From: a virus | DNA length: 64,000 nucleotides | IMG/VR virus record: IMGVR_UViG_3300032308_001297 | Span: 1-64,000 of that record | Strand: one strand, 5' to 3' | Part shown: positions 29,073-64,000 of the stretch, piece by piece | Layout of the letters: every line of letters begins with the position of its first letter | Numbering within the stretch: position 1 is the stretch's first letter | Notes under the pieces: model-generated | Seen by the model: the letters and a program-made list of their open reading frames with translations, nothing else | Told to the model about the DNA's origin: nothing | Databases searched by the model: none | Translations under genes and position numbers: made by a program

Positions 29073-29793
29073 AGCTAAGATCATTGCTATTACGCAACCA
29101 TCATTAAGATTAGATTCCCCACATGATAAATCAGGAGAAGCAATGACTGCTGAAGGGTTTATTGCTTACACGGCCAGAGTGTCTAATCCATCCAATCAGC
29201 ATAATACATTAACAGCTTCTAAACTTTTAAGTTATTTGATTAAGAACAAACACTGGTCGCCTTTCGAGATGGTCAGTGTAGTAATGGAAATAAATACCAC
29301 ACGAGATATTGCTAGACAAATTCTTAGACATAGATCGTTTTCATTTCAGGAATTCAGCCAGCGTTATGCTGATCCAACTTCGGACCTTGGGTTTGTTGAA
29401 AGAGAAACAAGACTCCAGGACCAGAAGAACAGACAGAATTCTATTGAAACAAATGATGAAAATTTGCAGAAGTGTTGGTATGCTAAACAGAAGCAACAGA
29501 TACATGAAGCTAAGTTAGCATATAAGTGGGCGATTGAGAATGGTGTTGCAAAAGAACAAGCAAGAGCAGTGTTACCGGAAGGATTGACTGTTTCTAGAAT
29601 GTATATGTCAGGTACACTTCGTTCTTGGATTCATTACATTGACGTTAGAGCAGAAGCTGGCACACAGAAAGAACATCGTGAGGTTGCTATTTCTGCAAGG
29701 GAAGAAATTCTAAAACACTTCCCATCATTAAGTGGATATTGGTATTCTGCTGATATCATTGAAGATAAACCTTGGTGGAGGTTTTGGTCATGA
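29065..29793 (+). CDS. thyX: Flavin-dependent thymidylate synthase ThyX
   Basis: This 242-residue protein carries the ThyX signature RHRSFSFQEFSQRY (about residues 91-104), matching RHRxxSxxxxSxR, which binds FAD and dUMP. It methylates dUMP to dTMP using methylene-tetrahydrofolate and NAD(P)H. With the ribonucleotide reductase and the dCMP deaminase (49256) it provides dTTP for replication. It lies in a run of overlapping genes. Confidence 0.95.
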   Translation: MNEAKIIAITQPSLRLDSPHDKSGEAMTAEGFIAYTARVSNPSNQHNTLTASKLLSYLIKNKHWSPFEMVSVVMEINTTRDIARQILRHRSFSFQEFSQRYADPTSDLGFVERETRLQDQKNRQNSIETNDENLQKCWYAKQKQQIHEAKLAYKWAIENGVAKEQARAVLPEGLTVSRMYMSGTLRSWIHYIDVRAEAGTQKEHREVAISAREEILKHFPSLSGYWYSADIIEDKPWWRFWS

Positions 29794-48635: not shown

Positions 48636-49269
48636 TCTAGTTCCAGAAGTAGAGATTACTACTGAAACAATTGACGGTAAAAGACACTATGTGTTACCGA
48701 GTGGAGAAAAATTTCGCTCGGTAACAACTGTATTGTCAGACGCTTTAGATAAAACAGCACTACTAGAGTGGAGAAAGAAAGTTGGTGAGGAAGAAGCTCA
48801 AAAGATTTCTACACAAGCTGCTCGTCGTGGAACCGCCGTACATTCCATCGCAGAGCGTTATGTGCTCAATGAAGAGGAATATCTTCGGGATTCTATGCCT
48901 TCTGGAATTGATTCTTTTAAAAGCATTCAAACGCTTTTAGATAAACATGTAGATAACATTCTTGGTATTGAGTTACCTTTGTATTCTACTGTTTTAAAAA
49001 CAGCAGGAAGATGCGATCTTATTGCAGAGTTTGATGGCGTTCCTTCTATAATTGATTTTAAAACAAGTCGCAGATTAAAAGAGGAAAGCTGGATTGAGTC
49101 CTACTTCCTACAAACAACTGTCTATTCTATGATGTTTGAGTATATGTATAAAATAGAAATTCCCCAGATCGCAATACTAATAGCAGTGGATCATGAAGAG
49201 CCACAACTATTTGTAAAGGATCGTGGAGAATATGTTAATAGAGTTATAGAGATCTTTACTGCCAGCTAA
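48607..49269 (+). CDS. RecB/Cas4-like PD-(D/E)XK exonuclease
   Basis: This 220-residue protein has RGTAVHSIAERY (His in motif I), AGRCDLIAEFDGVPSIIDFKTS (Asp, then Asp-x-Lys, about residues 137-158) and a YFLQTTVYSMMFE motif with Gln-x3-Tyr, the RecB-family nuclease signature. Similar exonucleases are found in cyanophages. It probably degrades host DNA or processes ends. It starts within the upstream gene and its tail overlaps the converging deaminase by 14 bases. Confidence 0.8.
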   Translation: MARRKIFKHNLVPEVEITTETIDGKRHYVLPSGEKFRSVTTVLSDALDKTALLEWRKKVGEEEAQKISTQAARRGTAVHSIAERYVLNEEEYLRDSMPSGIDSFKSIQTLLDKHVDNILGIELPLYSTVLKTAGRCDLIAEFDGVPSIIDFKTSRRLKEESWIESYFLQTTVYSMMFEYMYKIEIPQIAILIAVDHEEPQLFVKDRGEYVNRVIEIFTAS

Positions 49270-49672
49270 CGCCAAACATTCCTTCTTCGTCTGTAGAGTA
49301 TACTGTTTTTTTGATACCAAAATGCTCAATGGCTTTAGAACACCCAGAGCAAGGTTCGGCCAAACCGCTAACCCAGTTTACATCTCCCTTATTAGTTTTC
49401 TTGACACGATAAACATAAAGGGTTGCATCTTTTAGATCCTCTTGTTCTACGATCCTCAATGCATTGATGATACAATCTACCTCTGCATGTTTAAAAATCG
49501 CATCGTTGTTCTTAGAAAATCTTTTCTGCAAAGGATGAGATTTATCGGAGTTAAGACCAACAGAAATTACCTCGTTACGAAGAACGAGGCAAGCAGCAAG
49601 TTTCATTCTCATATTATTGTTAATGGCAATTCGACGAACGAAAGCCATATATTTCAAATCACGTGAATTCAT
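49256..49672 (-). CDS. dCMP/cytidine deaminase family protein
   Basis: This 138-residue zinc deaminase has HAEVDCI (His, catalytic Glu) near residue 75 and PCSGC near residue 112 as the zinc-binding Cys pair. T4-like phages use dCMP deaminase to feed dUMP to thymidylate synthase; the window's ThyX fits. The N-terminus lacks the extra zinc site of T4 Cd, and another substrate cannot be excluded. It converges with the nuclease gene and overlaps the sulfotransferase start side by 14 bases. Confidence 0.8.
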   Translation of the reverse strand: MNSRDLKYMAFVRRIAINNNMRMKLAACLVLRNEVISVGLNSDKSHPLQKRFSKNNDAIFKHAEVDCIINALRIVEQEDLKDATLYVYRVKKTNKGDVNWVSGLAEPCSGCSKAIEHFGIKKTVYSTDEEGMFGVSWQ

Positions 49673-50177
49673 CAGAGTATCCTAAATTGCGGAAGTCTCG
49701 AGCATAGATAATTCGAACTCTATCAATCAAATAAGAAGTATAGTCTTTATAATACTGTTCTTTCGAGTAAGAGCCAACATTTATTTTTGGTAAGGCTATA
49801 TTCATATCTCTCTCTAAATCTGAGATGTTTTCAAATCTATAGATCTTATCCATTTCTGTTTTACCATCTTCAAAGATATAAAAAGATTGATCATATTTAA
49901 TAAGCGGAGTTTTCTCCGTAGCCATTCCTTGTTCTATCATAGATAAAAAGTTTTTGAAAGATATGCTAGACGTATTAAATCTGCGAAAATGATGATAATA
50001 ACTATACGCTCTCGTAAAAGGATTTCTTACGACAGAGAATTTAAATGTGTCAGAAGGTATGTTATTATTCTGTTTAATTACATGGTAAGGATCATGACCG
50101 ATATGCCATGTCCTTACCCATTTATCTTTACCTATAGATTCTCTTAATGCAATCCCTGCAGTTTTAGGAATGTGCAC
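49659..50177 (-). CDS. Sulfotransferase
   Basis: The open frame continues upstream through the tRNA-Gly gene, but no ATG lies between; the first plausible start is GTG at 50177, giving 172 residues beginning VHIPKTAG. This is the PAPS 5'-phosphosulfate-binding motif itself, so the N-terminal strand is shortened. FSVVRNPFTRAYSYYHHF (about residues 47-64) is the 3'-phosphate-binding motif. Such enzymes move sulfate from PAPS to sugars or other acceptors. No ribosome site is visible, so the gene may be degraded or translated from within the tRNA-containing transcript. Confidence 0.7.
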   Translation of the reverse strand: MHIPKTAGIALRESIGKDKWVRTWHIGHDPYHVIKQNNNIPSDTFKFSVVRNPFTRAYSYYHHFRRFNTSSISFKNFLSMIEQGMATEKTPLIKYDQSFYIFEDGKTEMDKIYRFENISDLERDMNIALPKINVGSYSKEQYYKDYTSYLIDRVRIIYARDFRNLGYSDEFT

Positions 50178-50188
50178 AAAAAGAAAAT

Positions 50189-50263
50189 TGGAGCGGGAGA
50201 TGGGAATCGAACCCACTACGAACAGCTTGGAAGGCTGACACTCTACCAATGAGTTACACCCGC
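50189..50263 (-). tRNA. tRNA-Gly (TCC anticodon)
   Basis: The cloverleaf has acceptor GCGGGTG with CTCCCGC (one U-U mismatch at position 6-67), anticodon loop CTTCCAA, T arm GTGGG-TTCGATT-CCCAT and encoded CCA. The stop codon of the upstream membrane protein lies in the 5' acceptor strand. Confidence 0.93.
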
Positions 50264-50576: not shown

Positions 50577-51713
50577 CTAGATCAACATTCTAAATTTATC
50601 GTATAAATCTAGACCTTCAAAATTTACATCCAAAGAATGAGCCGTCCATATATCATGCGTGGCTGTTTTGGGGTATCTATTTTCTCTAAAAGCTCTATCA
50701 TAAAACACAGGCGATTGTATCGCCTTTCTCATACAATTTGCACCTTTTTCATGTGCCATTTTCCAGAAATCGTTTTCGAAAACAGAACCAGCAAAATAGT
50801 GCATCATAATAAGATCTTCATTTCCACTTATTCTTTGATGGTATTTAAGATTAACTTCTTCTTCTGTTTGATTATTTTCCACCCAGTATTCCCAAGCGAG
50901 TCTCTGAACGTAGTCAGTAGTATTAATAGTCGTGGCTTCTAAAGGTTCCAAGAAGAAAGAAGCATTGCCATTATATGCTACTCTACCATCAAAGTTTTTC
51001 TTTCTAATAAAACTTTTAAAAGGAAATGTAATAGTATCTTCGCTAGGAGTTAGATCGTATTCTCTGAATATATTATTACTATCTTCTTTAATCTGATCAA
51101 GAGTAGCATAATTATCGTTATACATATAACCTATGCTACATCTATTTTTCAAAGGTATACCAAAGAACCAACCATGTGGTCTTGCTTCGGTACGAGTATA
51201 ACTAAACTTTGGATAATCCCAATAACACTGAGTAACATGAACAGCGTTCACAGGAATATTCATCAAATCAATCTTTGAAAGATCTTTAGGAAACCCAGAA
51301 CAGTCAAATATATAATCAGAATCAATTTGATCGTGTAAGATATTTTGTTCTATGGTATTAATTCTTGGATCAAATCTTAGTTTTTCAAAAATATAATTCT
51401 GCAACTTAACTGCATTCACATGCCAAGCAATCATCGGCGTAGCAAAAGCATGATGAAATGTGTTCTTAGACCAATTCTTTTTAAAAATAGAATATTTAAA
51501 AGAACCGTCTACTTTATCTAGATCATAATGTTCAAACCCCAAGTTCTCATACAAACTCTTACAAACAAGAGGAGTAAGACCTTCTCCTACTGATTGTGTT
51601 TTAACATTAGGATCATAGTACCAATCTATTTCCCAATCAGTCCATTTTAGAAAGTGTGCTGCAGCAAAACAACCTGCAGTCCCTCTACCAATAATAGCTA
51701 ATTTTTTTGTCAT
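50577..51713 (-). CDS. Flavin-dependent tryptophan-halogenase-like protein (short form)
   Basis: The protein has 378 residues from the ATG at 51713 (ATGA overlap with the upstream gene). The FAD-binding loop is IIGRGTAGCFAA, the SVGEGLTPLV strap segment follows, and the catalytic Lys lies in GSFKYSIF, equivalent to the Lys of PrnA. The diagnostic W-x-W-x-I-P motif reads WFFGIP, with the second Trp replaced by Phe. Known enzymes have about 450-540 residues, so this is a reduced version. A related cyanophage halogenase has been shown to accept many substrates; the present substrate is unknown. Confidence 0.8.
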   Translation of the reverse strand: MTKKLAIIGRGTAGCFAAAHFLKWTDWEIDWYYDPNVKTQSVGEGLTPLVCKSLYENLGFEHYDLDKVDGSFKYSIFKKNWSKNTFHHAFATPMIAWHVNAVKLQNYIFEKLRFDPRINTIEQNILHDQIDSDYIFDCSGFPKDLSKIDLMNIPVNAVHVTQCYWDYPKFSYTRTEARPHGWFFGIPLKNRCSIGYMYNDNYATLDQIKEDSNNIFREYDLTPSEDTITFPFKSFIRKKNFDGRVAYNGNASFFLEPLEATTINTTDYVQRLAWEYWVENNQTEEEVNLKYHQRISGNEDLIMMHYFAGSVFENDFWKMAHEKGANCMRKAIQSPVFYDRAFRENRYPKTATHDIWTAHSLDVNFEGLDLYDKFRMLI

Positions 51714-52081
51714 TGACAAACTGTAATCATATATGGATCGCCAAAGATATATCCGAAAGTATCCCAAGGATCTGGGTATGTTGTGCACACAGGACGAGGG
51801 ACAGGAACCTGTTCAATAATTACCTGTGGTGTTACTGGCATCATATAAACTTGATTAGTAACAATACCAACACCATTTGGAACATACTGCGGAGGAATAA
51901 CCTCCACAACAGGAGCAGGAGCCACGGGAACTGGAACAGGAACAGTCTTAACAACTTTCTTTACGACTGTTTTTGGACGAGTGTAATAAATCTTACAATC
52001 GTTACAGACATCGATCTCTTGACCTGCATAAGCAGGAGTAATCAAAAGACAAAGAGCAAGAGAGAGTTTCTTAATATCCAT
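51710..52081 (-). CDS. Exported Pro/Val-rich protein, 123 aa
   Basis: Starting at the ATG at 52081, the protein has a signal peptide (MDIKKLSLALCLLITPAYA) and a mature part with a Cys pair (CNDC), a Pro/Val stretch (VKTVPVPVPVAPAPVVEV) and aromatic C-terminus with two Cys. Extended, periplasm-spanning proteins have this composition. It overlaps the upstream Gly/Tyr-rich gene by 11 bases and the halogenase by four. Confidence 0.6.
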   Translation of the reverse strand: MDIKKLSLALCLLITPAYAGQEIDVCNDCKIYYTRPKTVVKKVVKTVPVPVPVAPAPVVEVIPPQYVPNGVGIVTNQVYMMPVTPQVIIEQVPVPRPVCTTYPDPWDTFGYIFGDPYMITVCQ

Positions 52082-53400: not shown

Positions 53401-53964
53401 TCACTCGCTATAATGCAGATAAGAACTCAATAGATACTTATCGCCTTTTAATACCGGAGCACCAGCGTGAGGATACATCCAGAAAGGAGGAAACATCAAT
53501 AGATTTCCTTTGATTGCTTGGAAATGCATATTCATGTTTGTGATAATAGTATCTCCTCCATCTTCTGGAGTGTTTAGATACCAAAAGAAAATCATAAACC
53601 GTTTACCGGAAATAAGATCGTTCGAATCAATGTGTTCATCGAAACGATCTTGCCCTCCTTCGCGATAATGTTTAATTCTAAACTGTTCAAATGCGAAATT
53701 CTTTGGCCAGAATTTAGTTTCTGTAACATCCTTACGATACTTTTCGATACCATCGAACGCACGTTCAACCAAATGCTGATGGAGTTGGGGGTGTATTAAT
53801 TTATGTCTACTGAAATTTAATTGTGTCATATTGGGAAATCCACCATCATCATATCTGATATGAAGATCTGGTTTCCATTTAAACATCGCTATCAATTCAT
53901 CACAAATATCTTCTTCTAAATGATTAGAATAAGACTTACAATAATCGTGAAGAAAAGAAGACAT
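53401..53964 (-). CDS. Prolyl-4-hydroxylase-like Fe(II)/2-oxoglutarate oxygenase
   Basis: This 187-residue protein contains a complete P4H-type site: His111-Ile-Asp113 (FDEHIDSND), His166 (YPHAGAPV) and Lys175 (KGDKYLLSSY), with PPFWMYPHAG in the usual strand and RFMIFFWYLNTPEDGGDT as the core beta-helix. Phage P4H-like proteins are common in aquatic T4-like phages, but substrates are unknown. Confidence 0.85.
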   Translation of the reverse strand: MSSFLHDYCKSYSNHLEEDICDELIAMFKWKPDLHIRYDDGGFPNMTQLNFSRHKLIHPQLHQHLVERAFDGIEKYRKDVTETKFWPKNFAFEQFRIKHYREGGQDRFDEHIDSNDLISGKRFMIFFWYLNTPEDGGDTIITNMNMHFQAIKGNLLMFPPFWMYPHAGAPVLKGDKYLLSSYLHYSE

Positions 53965-54058: not shown

Positions 54059-54286
54059 TCATAATTTATCTTTAATAATTGCTGTTGAAGTTTCTCTATC
54101 TATTAGCATTTTTCCATAACAACAGATATTCCAATCATGTCCATCATATTCGCTAAATGATGGAACATTTATTTGCACATGCTTAAAAAGATATTCTTTA
54201 TCTTCTTCGAACACACGCCAAACATGTTCAGCAGTTCCTCTTCCTGACATACCTCTAGTTTTATTAAACCTTATACGGTATTTCAT
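54059..54286 (-). CDS. Conserved small phage protein, 75 aa
   Basis: MKYRIRFNKTRGMSGRGT and EHVWRVFEEDKEYLFKHV followed by WNICCYGKMLIDRET are, from memory, conserved in small proteins of T4-like cyanophages. It is basic at the N-terminus. The ATGA junction with the upstream oxygenase implies coupling. Function unknown. Confidence 0.65.
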   Translation of the reverse strand: MKYRIRFNKTRGMSGRGTAEHVWRVFEEDKEYLFKHVQINVPSFSEYDGHDWNICCYGKMLIDRETSTAIIKDKL

Positions 54287-54882
54287 ATTACCTCTGCTGG
54301 CGGCGGAGGAGGAATATAATCTTTAACAGTTATATTAAAGTGTAATACTTTCATATATTCTTTATTAAGATGATCAGCAATCCCATGAGGAATCCATGAA
54401 TTTGATAAAACCAATAATCCAGGATATGGTTCTAATGATACCATTTCACTAGCATATGTAATATCATTTTTATTCTTTTGTGGTAAGTTTATCTGATTCT
54501 TACCAGGTCTAGGATCGAAGAATAATATTCTACCGCAATTTATAGGAACGTCAATAAAATAAAACCCAGACATATGAACATAACCAGAATGAACATGTTG
54601 CGCCATATAGCTATGTTTAGGGTATACCTGTAACCACATCTCGTTTAAACGAGTTTGTAATCTATTCATCGCATAACCCTGAGAGTCTAATATATCCCAA
54701 GCATTCTGCGCTACATGACTAGCAAAATTCTGCACCCTAATATCAAAAGCAAAGTTTTCTGATTGAAACATTTGTTCACCAGAAAAATTGTCATAATTTT
54801 TAGAAACTTCTTTTATAGATTCTAAAAATATTTTACAATCTTCTGTATATATTGAACTATGAAAACAATCAAATTTTTCCAT
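54283..54882 (-). CDS. 2OG-Fe(II) oxygenase-like protein (TIGR02466 type)
   Basis: This 199-residue protein matches the phage family with HxH-containing core: His96-Val-His98 followed by SGYVHMSGFYFIDVP and ILFFDPRPG, then VLSNSWIPHGI with His166. The family is placed in the Fe(II)/2-oxoglutarate superfamily by fold prediction; here the first ligand pair is His-x-His rather than His-x-Asp. The N-terminal helices (SHVAQNAWDILD) fit. The C-terminus is a Pro run. Confidence 0.75.
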   Translation of the reverse strand: MEKFDCFHSSIYTEDCKIFLESIKEVSKNYDNFSGEQMFQSENFAFDIRVQNFASHVAQNAWDILDSQGYAMNRLQTRLNEMWLQVYPKHSYMAQHVHSGYVHMSGFYFIDVPINCGRILFFDPRPGKNQINLPQKNKNDITYASEMVSLEPYPGLLVLSNSWIPHGIADHLNKEYMKVLHFNITVKDYIPPPPPAEVI

Positions 54883-59251: not shown

Positions 59252-60118
59252 TTACTTCTTTTTGCCTTTATCTTTAAACTTACCTAGTGCACCTGGGTCG
59301 GCAGTAGCAGACACACCAACTGAAGCAAGATCAGCAAGAGAACCACCAAAGATATAAGTTCCAACATGCTGCATCTTCATCCATGGACAGAACCAAGTAC
59401 GCAGTCCAATGTCTTGAGCTTTCTGACAGAACCAATAATCTTCTGATAGATAACGTTTTGACTTCGGATCAATTTCTGCCTGAAAGAACATCATAATCTC
59501 ACGAGTGCCATCAAAGTGCTCGGTGCGAACATGATCTGGTTTATAGTTATATTGCGGATAAGAATCCACAAACTTTTGCATTGCGTTCTTAGAAACCATC
59601 ATGAAGCCAGTTCCAATCTCAAGAACCTCAACTGGTTCATTAAGAGGAATAGACTGCTGACCGCCCTTTGGATTGAAGACATAATCACCAACGAACTTTT
59701 CAAGAACGTTTGGATCTTCATCAGCAACACCCTTATCAACAGCGTGCTTAACCTTCTCCCAAGAAATACACTTCTTTGGATATGGTCCACCAATGATGTC
59801 ATACTTATCTTCTTCTTGTGCCTGAAGAGCCATAAGAGCAATAACATCTTGTGGATTGAAGCCAATATCAGCATCAATAAACATCATATGTTGTGCTTTC
59901 GAACGCATGAATTCGTCGCAACAATAGTTACGTGCACGTGGAATCAATGATTCGTTGAACAAATAATAAAACTGTAGAGGAATACCATACTGCGTACAAA
60001 GAGCAGATAGATCTGCCGATGACTTGGCAAACATACCTGCACATTGCCCACCATACATTGGTGTTGCAACGAACAATCCTCTTTCTCTAAGTTTCTCAAT
60101 TGGGATCTGAATTTCCAT
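59252..60118 (-). CDS. GT-A fold glycosyltransferase-like protein
   Basis: This 288-residue protein has the donor-metal motif MFIDADIGF (Asp-x-Asp, about residues 81-89) after SLIPRARNYCCDEF, plus EVLEIGTGFMMVSK and YLSEDYWFCQKAQDIG typical of GT-A enzymes (Gly-x-Gly and Glu-Asp). Homologues are, from memory, placed near gene 45 in T4-like cyanophages. The acceptor may be a host surface sugar or modified DNA; unknown. Confidence 0.75.
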   Translation of the reverse strand: MEIQIPIEKLRERGLFVATPMYGGQCAGMFAKSSADLSALCTQYGIPLQFYYLFNESLIPRARNYCCDEFMRSKAQHMMFIDADIGFNPQDVIALMALQAQEEDKYDIIGGPYPKKCISWEKVKHAVDKGVADEDPNVLEKFVGDYVFNPKGGQQSIPLNEPVEVLEIGTGFMMVSKNAMQKFVDSYPQYNYKPDHVRTEHFDGTREIMMFFQAEIDPKSKRYLSEDYWFCQKAQDIGLRTWFCPWMKMQHVGTYIFGGSLADLASVGVSATADPGALGKFKDKGKKK

Positions 60119-60130
60119 TATATACCTTTC

Positions 60131-60340
60131 TTATGCTACAATAAAACTTTTAAATTTACAAGTGTTACAATGAACTGCTCTTTGCGGAGGAATTGAAGCT
60201 GTTACTACTGAGGGATTAGTGTCTTGTAACTCATCTCCGCAATGGGGACAAGCAATACCTGTTCCCAAATTAATAAAATGAGACATATATTCTCTGCGAC
60301 GTCGTTCGTTATAATCTTCAAAAGATTTCAATTCTTTCAT
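60131..60340 (-). CDS. Zinc-ribbon small protein, 69 aa
   Basis: Two Cys pairs, CPHCGDE near residue 32 and CNTC near residue 59, could bind one zinc. The N-terminus is charged and basic. It is coupled to the upstream gene (ATGA). Function unknown; nucleic acid binding is possible. Confidence 0.6.
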   Translation of the reverse strand: MKELKSFEDYNERRRREYMSHFINLGTGIACPHCGDELQDTNPSVVTASIPPQRAVHCNTCKFKSFIVA

Positions 60341-60729
60341 TTCAAATCCTTATAATGATCTGCATACAACATCATTAATACGTAATGAAGAACCTTTAAT
60401 AGATCTGCTTTATTGGCGCCTTTCTTTTTACCATAGCGCCAAAGATATTTGATAGCAGTATTTCGGAAGGTTGGCATAGAATCACCAAGAGCTAACCACA
60501 CATCGAAACATTCTATATTCTGCTCTTCAGTCATATAATGTTGCCCATATGTCTTGTCAATATAGGCATGGAAGTCACGAATAATTTCGTCTTCCTTGTA
60601 TTTATATTTAGGCGGGACGGTTCCAGAAGAATTTATTGTTGCATTAAATCTTTGACCATTTTCAAACATATAATCTGAACCAACAGCTCCAGTTGATCCA
60701 GTTGGTCCTAACGAAAATCTATTTGTCAT
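60337..60729 (-). CDS. DUF3310-like protein with collagen-like N-terminus, 130 aa
   Basis: Residues 48-130 (YIDKTYGQHYMTEEQNIECFD, TFRNTAIKYLWRYGKKKGANKADLLKVLHYV) match DUF3310, a helical family from phages often linked to nucleotide metabolism. The first 20 residues carry Gly-x-y triplets (LGPTGSTGAVGS). It lies directly after the nucleotide kinase gene and may work with it. Confidence 0.75.
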   Translation of the reverse strand: MTNRFSLGPTGSTGAVGSDYMFENGQRFNATINSSGTVPPKYKYKEDEIIRDFHAYIDKTYGQHYMTEEQNIECFDVWLALGDSMPTFRNTAIKYLWRYGKKKGANKADLLKVLHYVLMMLYADHYKDLK

Positions 60730-61265
60730 TTTACCTCCAATTGTTTCATAATATGTTCAATAATCTTCTCTTGATCCATAAAACAATTATTATTAAAACG
60801 TTCAACATTAAACATTAACATCATATTTGAAAGAATATTAGCAATCTTGGTTTCACGACCCTGTAACCAAGTTTCGTTCTGATTACTACCACGCTGTCTG
60901 TAACGATCTTTTCGAATTTCACTCTCAGTCTGCAGATAAATGATCTCTAATTCATAATTCTCTAAACAATGTTCAAGGAAAGATGATGTGAAAAGGCGAT
61001 CGCCTTCATAAAGAACGACTGCATCTTTATTTAAACTTGCTAGGAATTTAATTGCTTCTGGCTGAACAGCCATTGACATACGATCAGTCCCAGAGAACGT
61101 TTCGCCTTCGTCATACTTACCAAGGATATAATTATAATCGTATTGTAGATACGGAACAAGTTTTACTTCATCATAAACTTTGAGCCAATTATATTTCTCA
61201 ATAATCTTCTTCATAAGAGTGGACTTACCGGAACCTGGTTCGCCACCAATCGCAATAACTTTCAT
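60726..61265 (-). CDS. P-loop nucleotide/base kinase, possible HMdU DNA kinase
   Basis: This 179-residue protein has Walker A GGEPGSGKST (residues 7-16), a VVLYEGDRLF Walker B-like strand, and an Arg-rich lid (EIRKDRYRQRGSNQNETW). It overlaps by one base the amino-acid:DNA-transferase-like gene upstream. In phages with hypermodified thymidine a P-loop kinase phosphorylates 5-hydroxymethyluracil in DNA before amino-acid transfer, and the two genes are neighbours. A dNMP kinase is the alternative. Confidence 0.65.
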   Translation of the reverse strand: MKVIAIGGEPGSGKSTLMKKIIEKYNWLKVYDEVKLVPYLQYDYNYILGKYDEGETFSGTDRMSMAVQPEAIKFLASLNKDAVVLYEGDRLFTSSFLEHCLENYELEIIYLQTESEIRKDRYRQRGSNQNETWLQGRETKIANILSNMMLMFNVERFNNNCFMDQEKIIEHIMKQLEVK

Positions 61266-62251
61266 TATGTAAACCTTTCAAGTCCGACCAACTCAGGCTC
61301 AACAAACAAACCTGTGCAATCTAGAATGCCACTTTCACTATATAAAGCCATTTTACTATTGTTTATCTGATTTGTCAACAGTTTATTATTTAGAGTCTCA
61401 TTACGAGCATCCCACATTGGTTGCCAATCAATACCACTCCATCCATCAGATTCGCACTTAGCAATTTCTTCAGCTTGACGATCAAGATAATATCCAAGGT
61501 AACGACCATGCTTTACTCGGAATAGTTTCTTGAAAGAACACAAGCATGTTTCCATATCAAAGTAATCAGTGTCAGGATAATCTTTCTTTACCTCTTGCAG
61601 AATTTCTCTTGCAGATTCATCTAGATAATTTAGTTCTTTTGAAGTTAGTTTGGCATCATACCAATCAGGTCTACCAACAGCCATACAAAGACCATTACGA
61701 TGGGAACGAGAACCAGAATAATCTTCTAGCATTAAACTACCAGGTTCTAATGGAAGTTCGCAACATTGTTTCAATGTCTGCATATAGAACCAAGTAGAAT
61801 ACCTGCCGAACTTATGGAACTTGGTCTTAACCTCATCCCATAATCTATTAAAGTTTTCATCAGGATTTTGAAGAAGGAATGGTCTGAATGCTTCTATCTG
61901 CGAACGATTGCCAATCCATTCCTTATAAGATATAAATTGTGCAGGAAGATGACCTTTATTCCATTTAGTGTCTATTTGGTAACGGAGTCTTTTGTAATTG
62001 TGGTTGTTCCATTCTTTTAGACGGTCAACGCCAACTAACTCCATATCAGGAAACTCGTTCCATATCACCCATGTTGTAGGAAAGAAATATGTTGTTCCAT
62101 AGATCCAAGCAATCCAGAGTTTCTGCTCTGTATTATGCTCGAATCTATCGAACAAGTAATTGGTCATAAAGATAGCGGGGTCGCAATCTTTAATGGAAAG
62201 CGACCACCGATACCAGTTTATGAAGTCTTGCTTACGCTGCTCTGAATTCAT
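61265..62251 (-). CDS. Putative amino acid:DNA transferase (alpha-glutamyl/putrescinyl-thymine pyrophosphorylase family)
   Basis: The protein has 328 residues from the ATG at 62251; the frame opens 15 bases earlier at a TTG. The segment DPAIFMTNYLFDRFEHNTEQKLWIAWIYGTTYF, split over residues about 25-58, with WVIWNEFPDME and NYKRLRYQTDT-like continuation, resembles helical proteins found in phages with thymidine hypermodification. The C-terminal half has LEDYSGSRSHRNGLC and CLCSFKKLF. It would displace pyrophosphate from modified uracil by an amino acid or amine. The family call is from memory and moderate. Confidence 0.55.
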   Translation of the reverse strand: MNSEQRKQDFINWYRWSLSIKDCDPAIFMTNYLFDRFEHNTEQKLWIAWIYGTTYFFPTTWVIWNEFPDMELVGVDRLKEWNNHNYKRLRYQIDTKWNKGHLPAQFISYKEWIGNRSQIEAFRPFLLQNPDENFNRLWDEVKTKFHKFGRYSTWFYMQTLKQCCELPLEPGSLMLEDYSGSRSHRNGLCMAVGRPDWYDAKLTSKELNYLDESAREILQEVKKDYPDTDYFDMETCLCSFKKLFRVKHGRYLGYYLDRQAEEIAKCESDGWSGIDWQPMWDARNETLNNKLLTNQINNSKMALYSESGILDCTGLFVEPELVGLERFT

Positions 62252-63527
62252 ACGTTTTTGTATCAATAAAAGAAGGAAGATATCGAATTTCGATATCGAT
62301 ATCGGATCTTACATACTTCAGAGCGTTCTTTAACTTGCGTTCATGGTCATGTCTCTTCTCATAATTATCTAAAGAATTATGACTGATTAGCATAATACCT
62401 TTAGTAACTCCCATTTCGCCCAGCTTATTAAGAATAGCACCAACACCATTATTGTAACTGGCGTTCGAACTGATACCAATGATCGCTATATTTTTCTCTG
62501 ATCCAGGATTATACTTTTTGTCAAGTTTCTTTACTTCTGCAGAAACCTCATCGTTTGTCCACTTCTTAAAGTTATGAGTCTTGAGAATTTCTTCTTCCTT
62601 AATATTCTTTTTAATAGCAAGAAGATTACCAGAAATTTCGTTAGGACTCCAATACCTGTTTAGGTTGGCTAAACATACATCAGAAAAATACTTAGAATTA
62701 ATATCACCACCAATACGATCGTAAAGATTCAATATTGCTTTTTTACAATCTTCTTTAGTGTTTCCTTTTTTAATTTTTTCCTGATGATTCATCTCGTAAC
62801 CAAAATCATCATAATTGGCTTGAGAGTCTTCAAACTCAGAACTGTTAATGTAGATTGCTGGAATATTTGTCCATCCTGCTTTAAGAGCAGCATAGCTAGT
62901 ATGATTGCCATCCAAAATTAATTGGCGATCAATTTCAACACAAATAATGATAGGAGAAATACTGTTTCTAGCTCGAGCAGGATCAGAAACCATTCTTTCT
63001 TCAATCGAGTCTACATGTTTCTGATCAAATTGCTCCAAACGAACTTGGTTTCTTGGCAAGATAGATAGTTCTTCGACATTAGCTTCTACAATATCATAAT
63101 AACCACTTTCGATTCGTTGTTTGACCCGCATAACCAAATTGTGGTTTGCGACCCTCAGTGCGCTATTGTCTTCGTTAATAACTTCTTTAGTATTAAGCCA
63201 CTTAGTTGCTGAAGAAATAGCTGATTCTGAAAGATCTTCAACGCTACCCATTCCTTTACCGCCACCCTGATTATTGTTATACCATTTTGGGTTAGAAGCA
63301 GCCTTTACTTTTGAAAGAATATAATGTTCTAGAGCCAAACATTCTTCTCTAGATCCACGCCAAATAACGCTCTTACGTAGTAGCCCATTAGACCATGCAT
63401 GTTTTAATTCAAAGTCTTTAGAGGAAAAGTTATAGTTGTCATCTTCGTTTTCTGTTTGATGAAAACCTACGTATCTTTTACCATTATTAATATTAAACCA
63501 GCCATAGACGATAGCTTCGTATGTCAC
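62232..63527 (-). CDS. GIY-YIG and ParB-like domain fusion protein
   Basis: The protein has 431 residues from a GTG with GGAG upstream. The N-terminal 95 residues have a GIY-YIG-like core (IVYGWFNINNGKRYVGFH) continuing to CLALEHYIL with a possible catalytic Glu. Residues about 155-240 form a ParB/sulfiredoxin-like domain (LDGNHTSYAALKAGWTNIPAIYI). The C-terminal part is helical. ParB-type domains accompany DNA modification and restriction systems in phages, matching the transferase and kinase just downstream. Its end overlaps the transferase start by about 20 bases. Confidence 0.65.
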   Translation of the reverse strand: MTYEAIVYGWFNINNGKRYVGFHQTENEDDNYNFSSKDFELKHAWSNGLLRKSVIWRGSREECLALEHYILSKVKAASNPKWYNNNQGGGKGMGSVEDLSESAISSATKWLNTKEVINEDNSALRVANHNLVMRVKQRIESGYYDIVEANVEELSILPRNQVRLEQFDQKHVDSIEERMVSDPARARNSISPIIICVEIDRQLILDGNHTSYAALKAGWTNIPAIYINSSEFEDSQANYDDFGYEMNHQEKIKKGNTKEDCKKAILNLYDRIGGDINSKYFSDVCLANLNRYWSPNEISGNLLAIKKNIKEEEILKTHNFKKWTNDEVSAEVKKLDKKYNPGSEKNIAIIGISSNASYNNGVGAILNKLGEMGVTKGIMLISHNSLDNYEKRHDHERKLKNALKYVRSDIDIEIRYLPSFIDTKTYEFRAA

Positions 63528-63554: not shown

Positions 63555-63582
63555 AGTATACTACATTTTTAAAAATTTTCAA
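63555..63582 (-). promoter_or_regulatory. sigma70-like promoter of the DNA modification-like operon
   Basis: On the minus strand TTGAAA is followed after 16 bases by TATACT, 28 bases before the GIY-YIG/ParB start. It overlaps the end of the acetyltransferase gene. Confidence 0.5.
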
Positions 63583-64000
63583 CACCTTTATACTCGACGA
63601 AACATTCGATACATCCACCTTTACCTTTACGATTCATTTGTTTCCAAATATACGAATCAATATTATCCATATCATTTTCTAGAATGTCTGGTCTCAATAG
63701 AACAAACATTGCAAGCTGTGCTGTTTTCTGTCTGCAGATCATTTTAAATCCGTATTTCTCATAGAATGGAACAGCGTCTAGTTCTGCGGACACTCTGAAA
63801 TAATCAGCCTTATTATCAAAAGCGTATTGTAATGCGTAGTCACAGAGAAGAGATCCAACTCCTCTGCCACGAAACTTATAGAAGGTATGAAGTAATTGTA
63901 GATTAGCTACTAATGGTTGACGTTTAGAAACAGTAACAACGATAGCACCAGCTAACTCGTCGCCGTCCCAAGCTCCCATCAATAGACTCCAATCATTCAT
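63569..64000 (-). CDS. GNAT acetyltransferase (possibly incomplete at the window edge)
   Basis: These 143 residues show the GNAT fold: GAIVVTVSKRQPLVANLQLLHT strand region, FRGRGVGSLLCDYAL as the acetyl-CoA loop (Arg/Gly-x-x-Gly-x-Gly), and VPFYEKYGFKMI near the end of the domain. A Cys-containing tail (KGGCIECFVEYKG) follows. The first Met is at the very edge, so the true start may lie outside. Such enzymes acetylate amines; no target is suggested. Confidence 0.8.
   Translation of the reverse strand: MNDWSLLMGAWDGDELAGAIVVTVSKRQPLVANLQLLHTFYKFRGRGVGSLLCDYALQYAFDNKADYFRVSAELDAVPFYEKYGFKMICRQKTAQLAMFVLLRPDILENDMDNIDSYIWKQMNRKGKGGCIECFVEYKGVENF

Follow-up and report, generated by a model that had tools for sequence, protein, structure and literature searches.

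A predicted thymine-hypermodification operon in a T4-like phage, with a TET/JBP dioxygenase, a base kinase, an amino acid transferase and a putative amide-forming gene set

In the Salmonella phage ViI, hypermodified thymine is made by way of 5-hydroxymethyluracil (5hmU) and a kinase intermediate (PMC6449724), and a 5-phosphomethyl-dU (5-PmdU) glycinyltransferase, PUGT (gp46 of Pseudomonas phage PaMx11), has been crystallized (structure 8z2m). For the Rhodococcus phage Tonitrus, a scheme of thymine hypermodification by a ParB protein, a TET-like protein, a base transferase and a kinase has been put forward (PMC11955845), and gp2 of Mycobacterium phage Cooper has been counted among the TET/JBP proteins (PMC12730594). 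On the cytosine side, CmoY of Synechococcus phage S-B43 is an ATP-dependent amide ligase for the carboxylate of a DNA base, the modification concerned being 5-carboxymethylcytosine-glycine (PMC12783734). The phage TETs shown to work act on methylcytosine, and thymine hypermodification as studied at the bench begins with a hydroxymethylase operating at the nucleotide level. Here we describe a viral locus encoding a kinase and a transferase that, as we consider likely, constitute the middle of a post-replicative pathway for DNA thymine hypermodification. The scheme combining TET, ParB, transferase and kinase is already proposed; less known are its amide-forming branch and the swapping of its modules. 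In the literature searched, we found no description of an amide-forming set in such an operon, of recurrent swapping of the module next to an unchanging TET or of an inositol branch.

The analyzed DNA (the window) is the first 64,000 nt of a 162,364-base virus record, which shares its numbering; the record is classed as linear and may be incomplete, and gene absences from it are accordingly not final. The original prediction centered on an overlapping pair of open reading frames for a kinase and an amino acid:DNA transferase (ADDT), and both are indeed present on the minus strand, in an operon that continues past the window. In minus-strand order, its genes and downstream flank are as follows:

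65641-67014, minus strand (beyond the window): TET/JBP dioxygenase, 457-aa ORF (PF12851)
64958-65641, minus strand (beyond the window): class-II glutamine amidotransferase (PF13522 and motifs)
64074-64961, minus strand (beyond the window): amidoligase (weak PF12224 match; GS/YbdK fold)
63569-64174, minus strand (window part 63569-64000): GNAT acyltransferase (PF13673, 50.5 bits, over the cut-off)
62232-63527, minus strand: GIY-YIG/ParB-like fusion protein, predicted DNA-acting partner (weak ParB match; profile match to a Melnitz protein)
61265-62251, minus strand: ADDT, predicted amino acid:5-phosphomethyl-dU transferase (PF18724 and predicted fold)
60726-61265, minus strand: P-loop kinase, predicted 5-hydroxymethyl-dU (DNA) kinase (PF18751)
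60337-60729, minus strand: DUF3310-like small protein, downstream flank (phrog_480, 5e-24)
60131-60340, minus strand: small zinc-ribbon-like protein, downstream flank (phrog_30869, 9e-9; weak zinc-ribbon matches)
59252-60118, minus strand: glycosyltransferase-like protein, downstream boundary of the swapped module (phrog_1574, 5e-60; weak Anp1/GT-A match)

Adjacent frames in the operon overlap in most cases: the start of the kinase and the stop of the ADDT share one base at 61265, and the stop of the kinase overlaps the following gene by four bases. The ADDT was originally taken to begin at the ATG at 62251; its frame has a further TTG start upstream, at 62266. The glycosyltransferase-like gene is followed by a T4-type clamp and clamp loader, named by their sequence and by the gene order of Caulobacter phage Cr30. 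The source is a T4-like phage, and its compact operon is predicted to hypermodify thymine.

Profile searches upheld both proposed family assignments above the curated Pfam cut-offs. The ADDT matches PF18724 with 83.8 bits (cut-off, 26.2; E = 2e-23) over profile positions 12 to 229 of 232, and the kinase matches PF18751 (Ploopntkinase3) with 49.4 bits (cut-off, 27; E = 5e-13). The motifs GxxxxGK (Walker A), GTD and EGxR of the kinase are invariant in 18 relatives, including those of Cr30, Melnitz and Zemanar. A profile search of PDB sequences with the ADDT gave no meaningful match, and fold comparison alone brought up PUGT: an AlphaFold model of the ADDT (44 sequences; pLDDT, 93) aligns with 8z2m with a Z score of 18.6 over 253 residues at just 11% sequence identity, the next matches being DNA glycosylases with Z scores of about 10 and below (5 to 10). 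Going by this model, the ADDT shares a DNA-glycosylase-like fold with the 5-PmdU transferase, and we predict that it transfers an amino acid to 5-PmdU. Residues conserved in the ADDT include D94, K96, R150, N186, E234 and C238. From its sequence, the kinase is predicted to phosphorylate 5hmU in DNA. Close ADDT relatives are encoded in 300 viral contigs, and every dereplicated locus with an ADDT-family gene also has the kinase (32/32), which together exclude a chance pairing. The same kinase family also occurs beside a C5-methyltransferase and a TET in Melnitz-type phages; hence, the kinase alone is no proof that thymine is the modified base.

The hydroxymethyl group that the kinase would act upon needs a source. 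As originally noted for the window, there is no dUMP hydroxymethylase, and a search of the whole record for PF00303 likewise found none, leading us to reject a hydroxymethylase elsewhere in it. It had been suggested that a base oxygenase could take its place. This holds in that a TET/JBP gene lies in the same operon, five genes upstream of the ADDT and 1.6 kb past the window end, but it is not among the 2-oxoglutarate (2OG) oxygenases seen at the time. The latter (53401-53964 and 54283-54882) give generic 2OG-FeII_Oxy_3/_5 matches and, given the TET/JBP gene, were rejected as the base oxygenase. The TET/JBP domain (65860-66303, minus strand, within the ORF 65641-67014) matches PF12851 with 79.9 bits (cut-off, 34.9); its Fe/2OG-binding residues (HxD...H...R) are invariant in eight aligned phage copies, and a profile built from it and its relatives recovers human TET2 from the PDB (E = 1e-6). 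It is thus strongly supported that a TET/JBP base oxygenase stands in for the missing hydroxymethylase. This sets the locus apart from ViI, whose ADDT is of the same family (27% identity) and whose hypermodified nucleoside is 5-(2-aminoethoxy)methyl-dU: ViI has a thymidylate synthase (TS)-type gene (PF00303) and no TET, whereas our phage has a TET and no TS-type gene and additionally possesses the amidotransferase, amidoligase and GNAT genes. The ViI pathway ends with a decarboxylase, in systems of this type a PLP-dependent enzyme for the transferred amino acid.

The presence of a TET raises the alternative that it oxidizes 5-methylcytosine to 5-hydroxymethylcytosine (5hmC), which the kinase and ADDT then decorate, as in phages that couple a C5-methyltransferase to TET. 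Such systems share the TET/JBP enzyme and the decoration of a hydroxymethyl group with our locus, and phage TET/JBP enzymes described so far are reported to work on 5-methylcytosine (Burke 2021, via PMC12730594). Melnitz-type phages, which carry the same kinase family, have the C5-methyltransferase adjoining TET in 66 of 71 contigs. Against this, the cytosine-C5 methyltransferase domain (PF00145) is absent from the entire 162-kb record in a search that recovered it from Melnitz as a control. The same holds for 20 related viral records, all of which have PF12851 (20/20) and none of which has PF00303 or PF00145 (0/20 each), and for the whole records of the TET-encoding phages Cr30, DLP6, C48C1, S-CBWM1, HTVC112P and Zemanar, among which only Cr30 has a TS-family gene, a canonical thymidylate synthase. 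Five ADDT phages from the phage collection were examined as whole records: ViI, Vibrio 144E46.1 and Cygsa01 lack a TET and encode a divergent TS-type gene, Zemanar encodes a TET and lacks a TS, and Cr30 combines a TET with its canonical TS. Further, the C5-methyltransferase-linked TETs are distant from the clade of the window TET and have an aspartate in place of its arginine at the position aligned to His1904 of TET2, a base-contacting residue. Another base-contact position, D+3, was rejected as a discriminator of thymine and 5-methylcytosine, with an aspartate found in both clades. With neither a TS-type hydroxymethylase nor a C5-methyltransferase in the record, thymine is the likelier substrate, and ViI, which has an ADDT relative, builds its hypermodified thymine from 5hmU (PMC6449724). 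The evidence hence favors thymine over 5-methylcytosine as the substrate of the window TET, and we regard the cytosine route as unlikely. As a separate observation, marine Melnitz-type phages (L170 to L240) carry a TET close to the C5-methyltransferase and to a kinase of the family found in our phage, a gene set from which a phosphorylated 5hmC intermediate can be predicted.

The operon further encodes a potential amide-forming set. The amidotransferase matches PF13522 with 42.4 bits (cut-off, 27) and retains an N-terminal cysteine (Cys2) and HxR, HNG and ND motifs that are invariant in 17 relatives. The amidoligase copy in our phage matches PF12224 (Amidoligase_2) weakly, with 19.3 bits against a cut-off of 22 (E = 0.001); of its 27 relatives, 9 match at an E value of 0.01 (best, 3e-8), one of them above the cut-off. 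A structural model of a 99%-identical copy finds YbdK first (Z = 10.5), the 50 matches listed being glutamine synthetases and related carboxylate-amine ligases, and the modeled fold of the amidoligase is that of the glutamine synthetase/carboxylate-amine ligase class. The proposed amide bond on the carboxylate of a DNA base parallels the CmoX/CmoY system; however, CmoY is asparagine synthetase-like and acts on 5cxmC, as opposed to a ligase of the glutamine synthetase fold and a predicted thymine-derived base. An alternative reading is that the pair modifies the base, with the amidotransferase, amidoligase and GNAT being mere neighbors drawn from a peptide or cell-wall modification pathway. Indeed, in LUZ24-like phages the amidoligase and a similar class-II amidotransferase adjoin genes for RimK and gamma-glutamyl cyclotransferase, and the annotations of the stretch around them include no TET, ADDT or kinase; the two genes are therefore not diagnostic of base modification. 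Nevertheless, the amidotransferase is confined to loci with an ADDT (24/24) and never accompanies the glycosyltransferase-only module, and the amide set moves together with the ADDT in module exchanges and stays with it when the gene order shifts (L090 to L092). We hold the neighbor-only reading to be rather unlikely.

A GIY-YIG/ParB protein had also been noted beside the pair. Of this dual designation, the ParB part drew a weak PHROG match (E = 1e-4), and the GIY-YIG part found no match in Pfam. In a profile comparison, the protein matches over its full length (probability, 100; E = 1e-50) the Melnitz protein situated between TET and the kinase; profile comparison with Zemanar gp1 and HTVC112P gp17 returned no significant match. 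Such a protein hence occurs beside a TET and a kinase in two unrelated phage lineages (62232-63527 of the window and L004:6269-7552), and ParB-like genes adjoin TET in Zemanar, Tonitrus and HTVC112P. In Zemanar, the consecutive genes gp1 to gp4 encode ParB, TET, ADDT and the kinase. These actinophage clusters of Zemanar and Tonitrus follow the same logic as our operon (ParB-like protein, TET/JBP, base transferase and kinase) but belong to smaller genomes, and the genes annotated next to them include neither an amidotransferase nor an amidoligase or a GNAT. Cr30, which is likewise T4-like, has a TET 47% identical to that of our phage, along with ADDT-family and kinase genes, but possesses an inositol-1-phosphate synthase and a gene resembling the TET-associated glycosyltransferase (TAGT) where our phage has the amide set.

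Taking the preferred thymine reading, a route from T through 5hmU and 5-PmdU to aminoacyl-methyl-dU is well supported, with the product then probably being amidated or acylated. The sequences show the genes, their families and folds, their order and their linkage; the substrate, the order of steps, the amino acid, the amide and the protective effect are inferred as follows. The TET/JBP enzyme would act on thymine within the DNA of the phage itself, hydroxylating its 5-methyl group to give 5hmU and replacing the dUMP hydroxymethylase of ViI-type phages; the P-loop kinase would phosphorylate the 5-hydroxymethyl group to produce 5-PmdU; and the ADDT, with its DNA-glycosylase fold, would flip out the base and exchange the phosphate for an amino acid. 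The carboxylate and/or the amine of the attached amino acid could then be tailored, with the amidotransferase supplying ammonia, the amidoligase forming an amide and the GNAT carrying out an acylation. The GIY-YIG/ParB-like protein might assist on the DNA, and the end product is likely to protect the phage DNA against host nucleases. At about even chances, we propose that the virion DNA contains a new thymine derivative, an aminoacyl-methyl-dU made via TET action on thymine, with an amide (or peptide) formed at its carboxylate and/or an acyl group on its amine, and that TET-made 5hmU is in this lineage a common platform for exchangeable sets adding amino acid amides, sugars and perhaps inositol. 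If TET does produce 5hmU in the DNA of phages, it would join base-J-type chemistry to phage hypermodification and offer a tool enzyme for the oxidation of T in DNA.

We sampled 80 ADDT and 80 TET relatives from viral contigs, labeling their genes with custom-built profiles, and counted modules in 47 clusters (TET at 95% identity) that span the interval from TET to the downstream flank. An exchangeable module lies between the constant TET and a constant flank (DUF3310, glycosyltransferase and clamp), and was found in these forms:

amidotransferase set, ADDT and kinase: 24 of 47 clusters
TAGT (PF20691) alone: 9 of 47
N4/N6 methyltransferase, ADDT and kinase: 3 of 47
ADDT paralogue, myo-inositol-1-phosphate synthase, small HAD-like protein and kinase: 3 of 47
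GT4: 3 of 47
kinase only: 2 of 47
aGPT-PPlase3 or another ADDT, with an unknown 261-aa protein: 2 of 47
no module: 1 of 47

In the flank, the glycosyltransferase-like gene (59252-60118) is constant across relatives, the DUF3310-like gene stays beside the kinase or module in most of them, and the zinc-ribbon-like gene is found in some. The kinase occurs in 0 of 9 clusters with TAGT versus 34 of 38 without it (Fisher P = 5e-7, relatedness ignored), and in clusters selected by TET alone the figures are 0 of 9 versus 19 of 22 (P = 1e-5, relatedness again ignored). A phylogeny-aware test of the kinase against the glycosyltransferase module gave four of four informative pairs in the expected direction, too few for more than P = 0.125. 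Outside the 47-cluster count, L144 and Cr30 have a TAGT-like gene alongside an ADDT and a kinase. On the TET tree, the module switches at least 16 times, the amide set alone requiring at least nine changes on well-supported branches; the TET nearest to ours (L096; 88% identical) has a glycosyltransferase module. These exchanges also bear on the prospect of a decayed or inactive operon and unmodified DNA: the source is a metagenomic record, and modification is predicted from its genes, but the catalytic motifs are intact and conserved in tens of relatives, the reading frames overlap, and modules have been repeatedly exchanged rather than lost, making an inactive operon highly improbable. The combination of a constant TET with swapped modules makes it possible to compare, among close relatives, how each decoration fares against individual host nucleases, and the modules point to specific undescribed bases bearing an amide or inositol.

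Some of the rarer modules merit separate mention. The ADDT paralogue, myo-inositol-1-phosphate synthase (PF01658), small HAD-like protein and kinase occur together in L107:2914-5771 (plus strand), and in Cr30 (gp121 to gp123; L003:14209-17656) an ADDT paralogue lies beside a myo-inositol-1-phosphate synthase (PF01658). This suggests inositol or inositol phosphate as the group placed on the base in such modules. On one branch, a gene with an N6_N4_Mtase domain (PF01555; L142:11374-12036) lies between TET and the ADDT, and the target of its product might be either the group added to the base or the DNA itself. The TET genes of Cr30, DLP6 and S-CBWM1 (L003, L007 and L009) are misannotated as SNF2 DNA repair proteins, and the TET/JBP protein gp2 of Zemanar (L011:785-1759) is misannotated in the public record as a queuine tRNA-ribosyltransferase.

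Among the other genes to which the original prediction drew attention, the identities of ThyX, the dCMP deaminase and the oxygenases stood, but ThyX, described as nearby, is about 31 kb away:

29146-29727, plus strand: ThyX (PF02511, E = 7e-42)
49256-49672: dCMP deaminase (PF00383)
53401-53964 and 54283-54882: the two 2OG oxygenases (2OG-FeII_Oxy_3/_5)

The window additionally encodes a tryptophan-halogenase-like protein (50577-51788; PF04820, E = 1.5e-27) and a sulfotransferase-like protein (49659-50249); the replication region of DLP6 likewise has a sulfotransferase gene.
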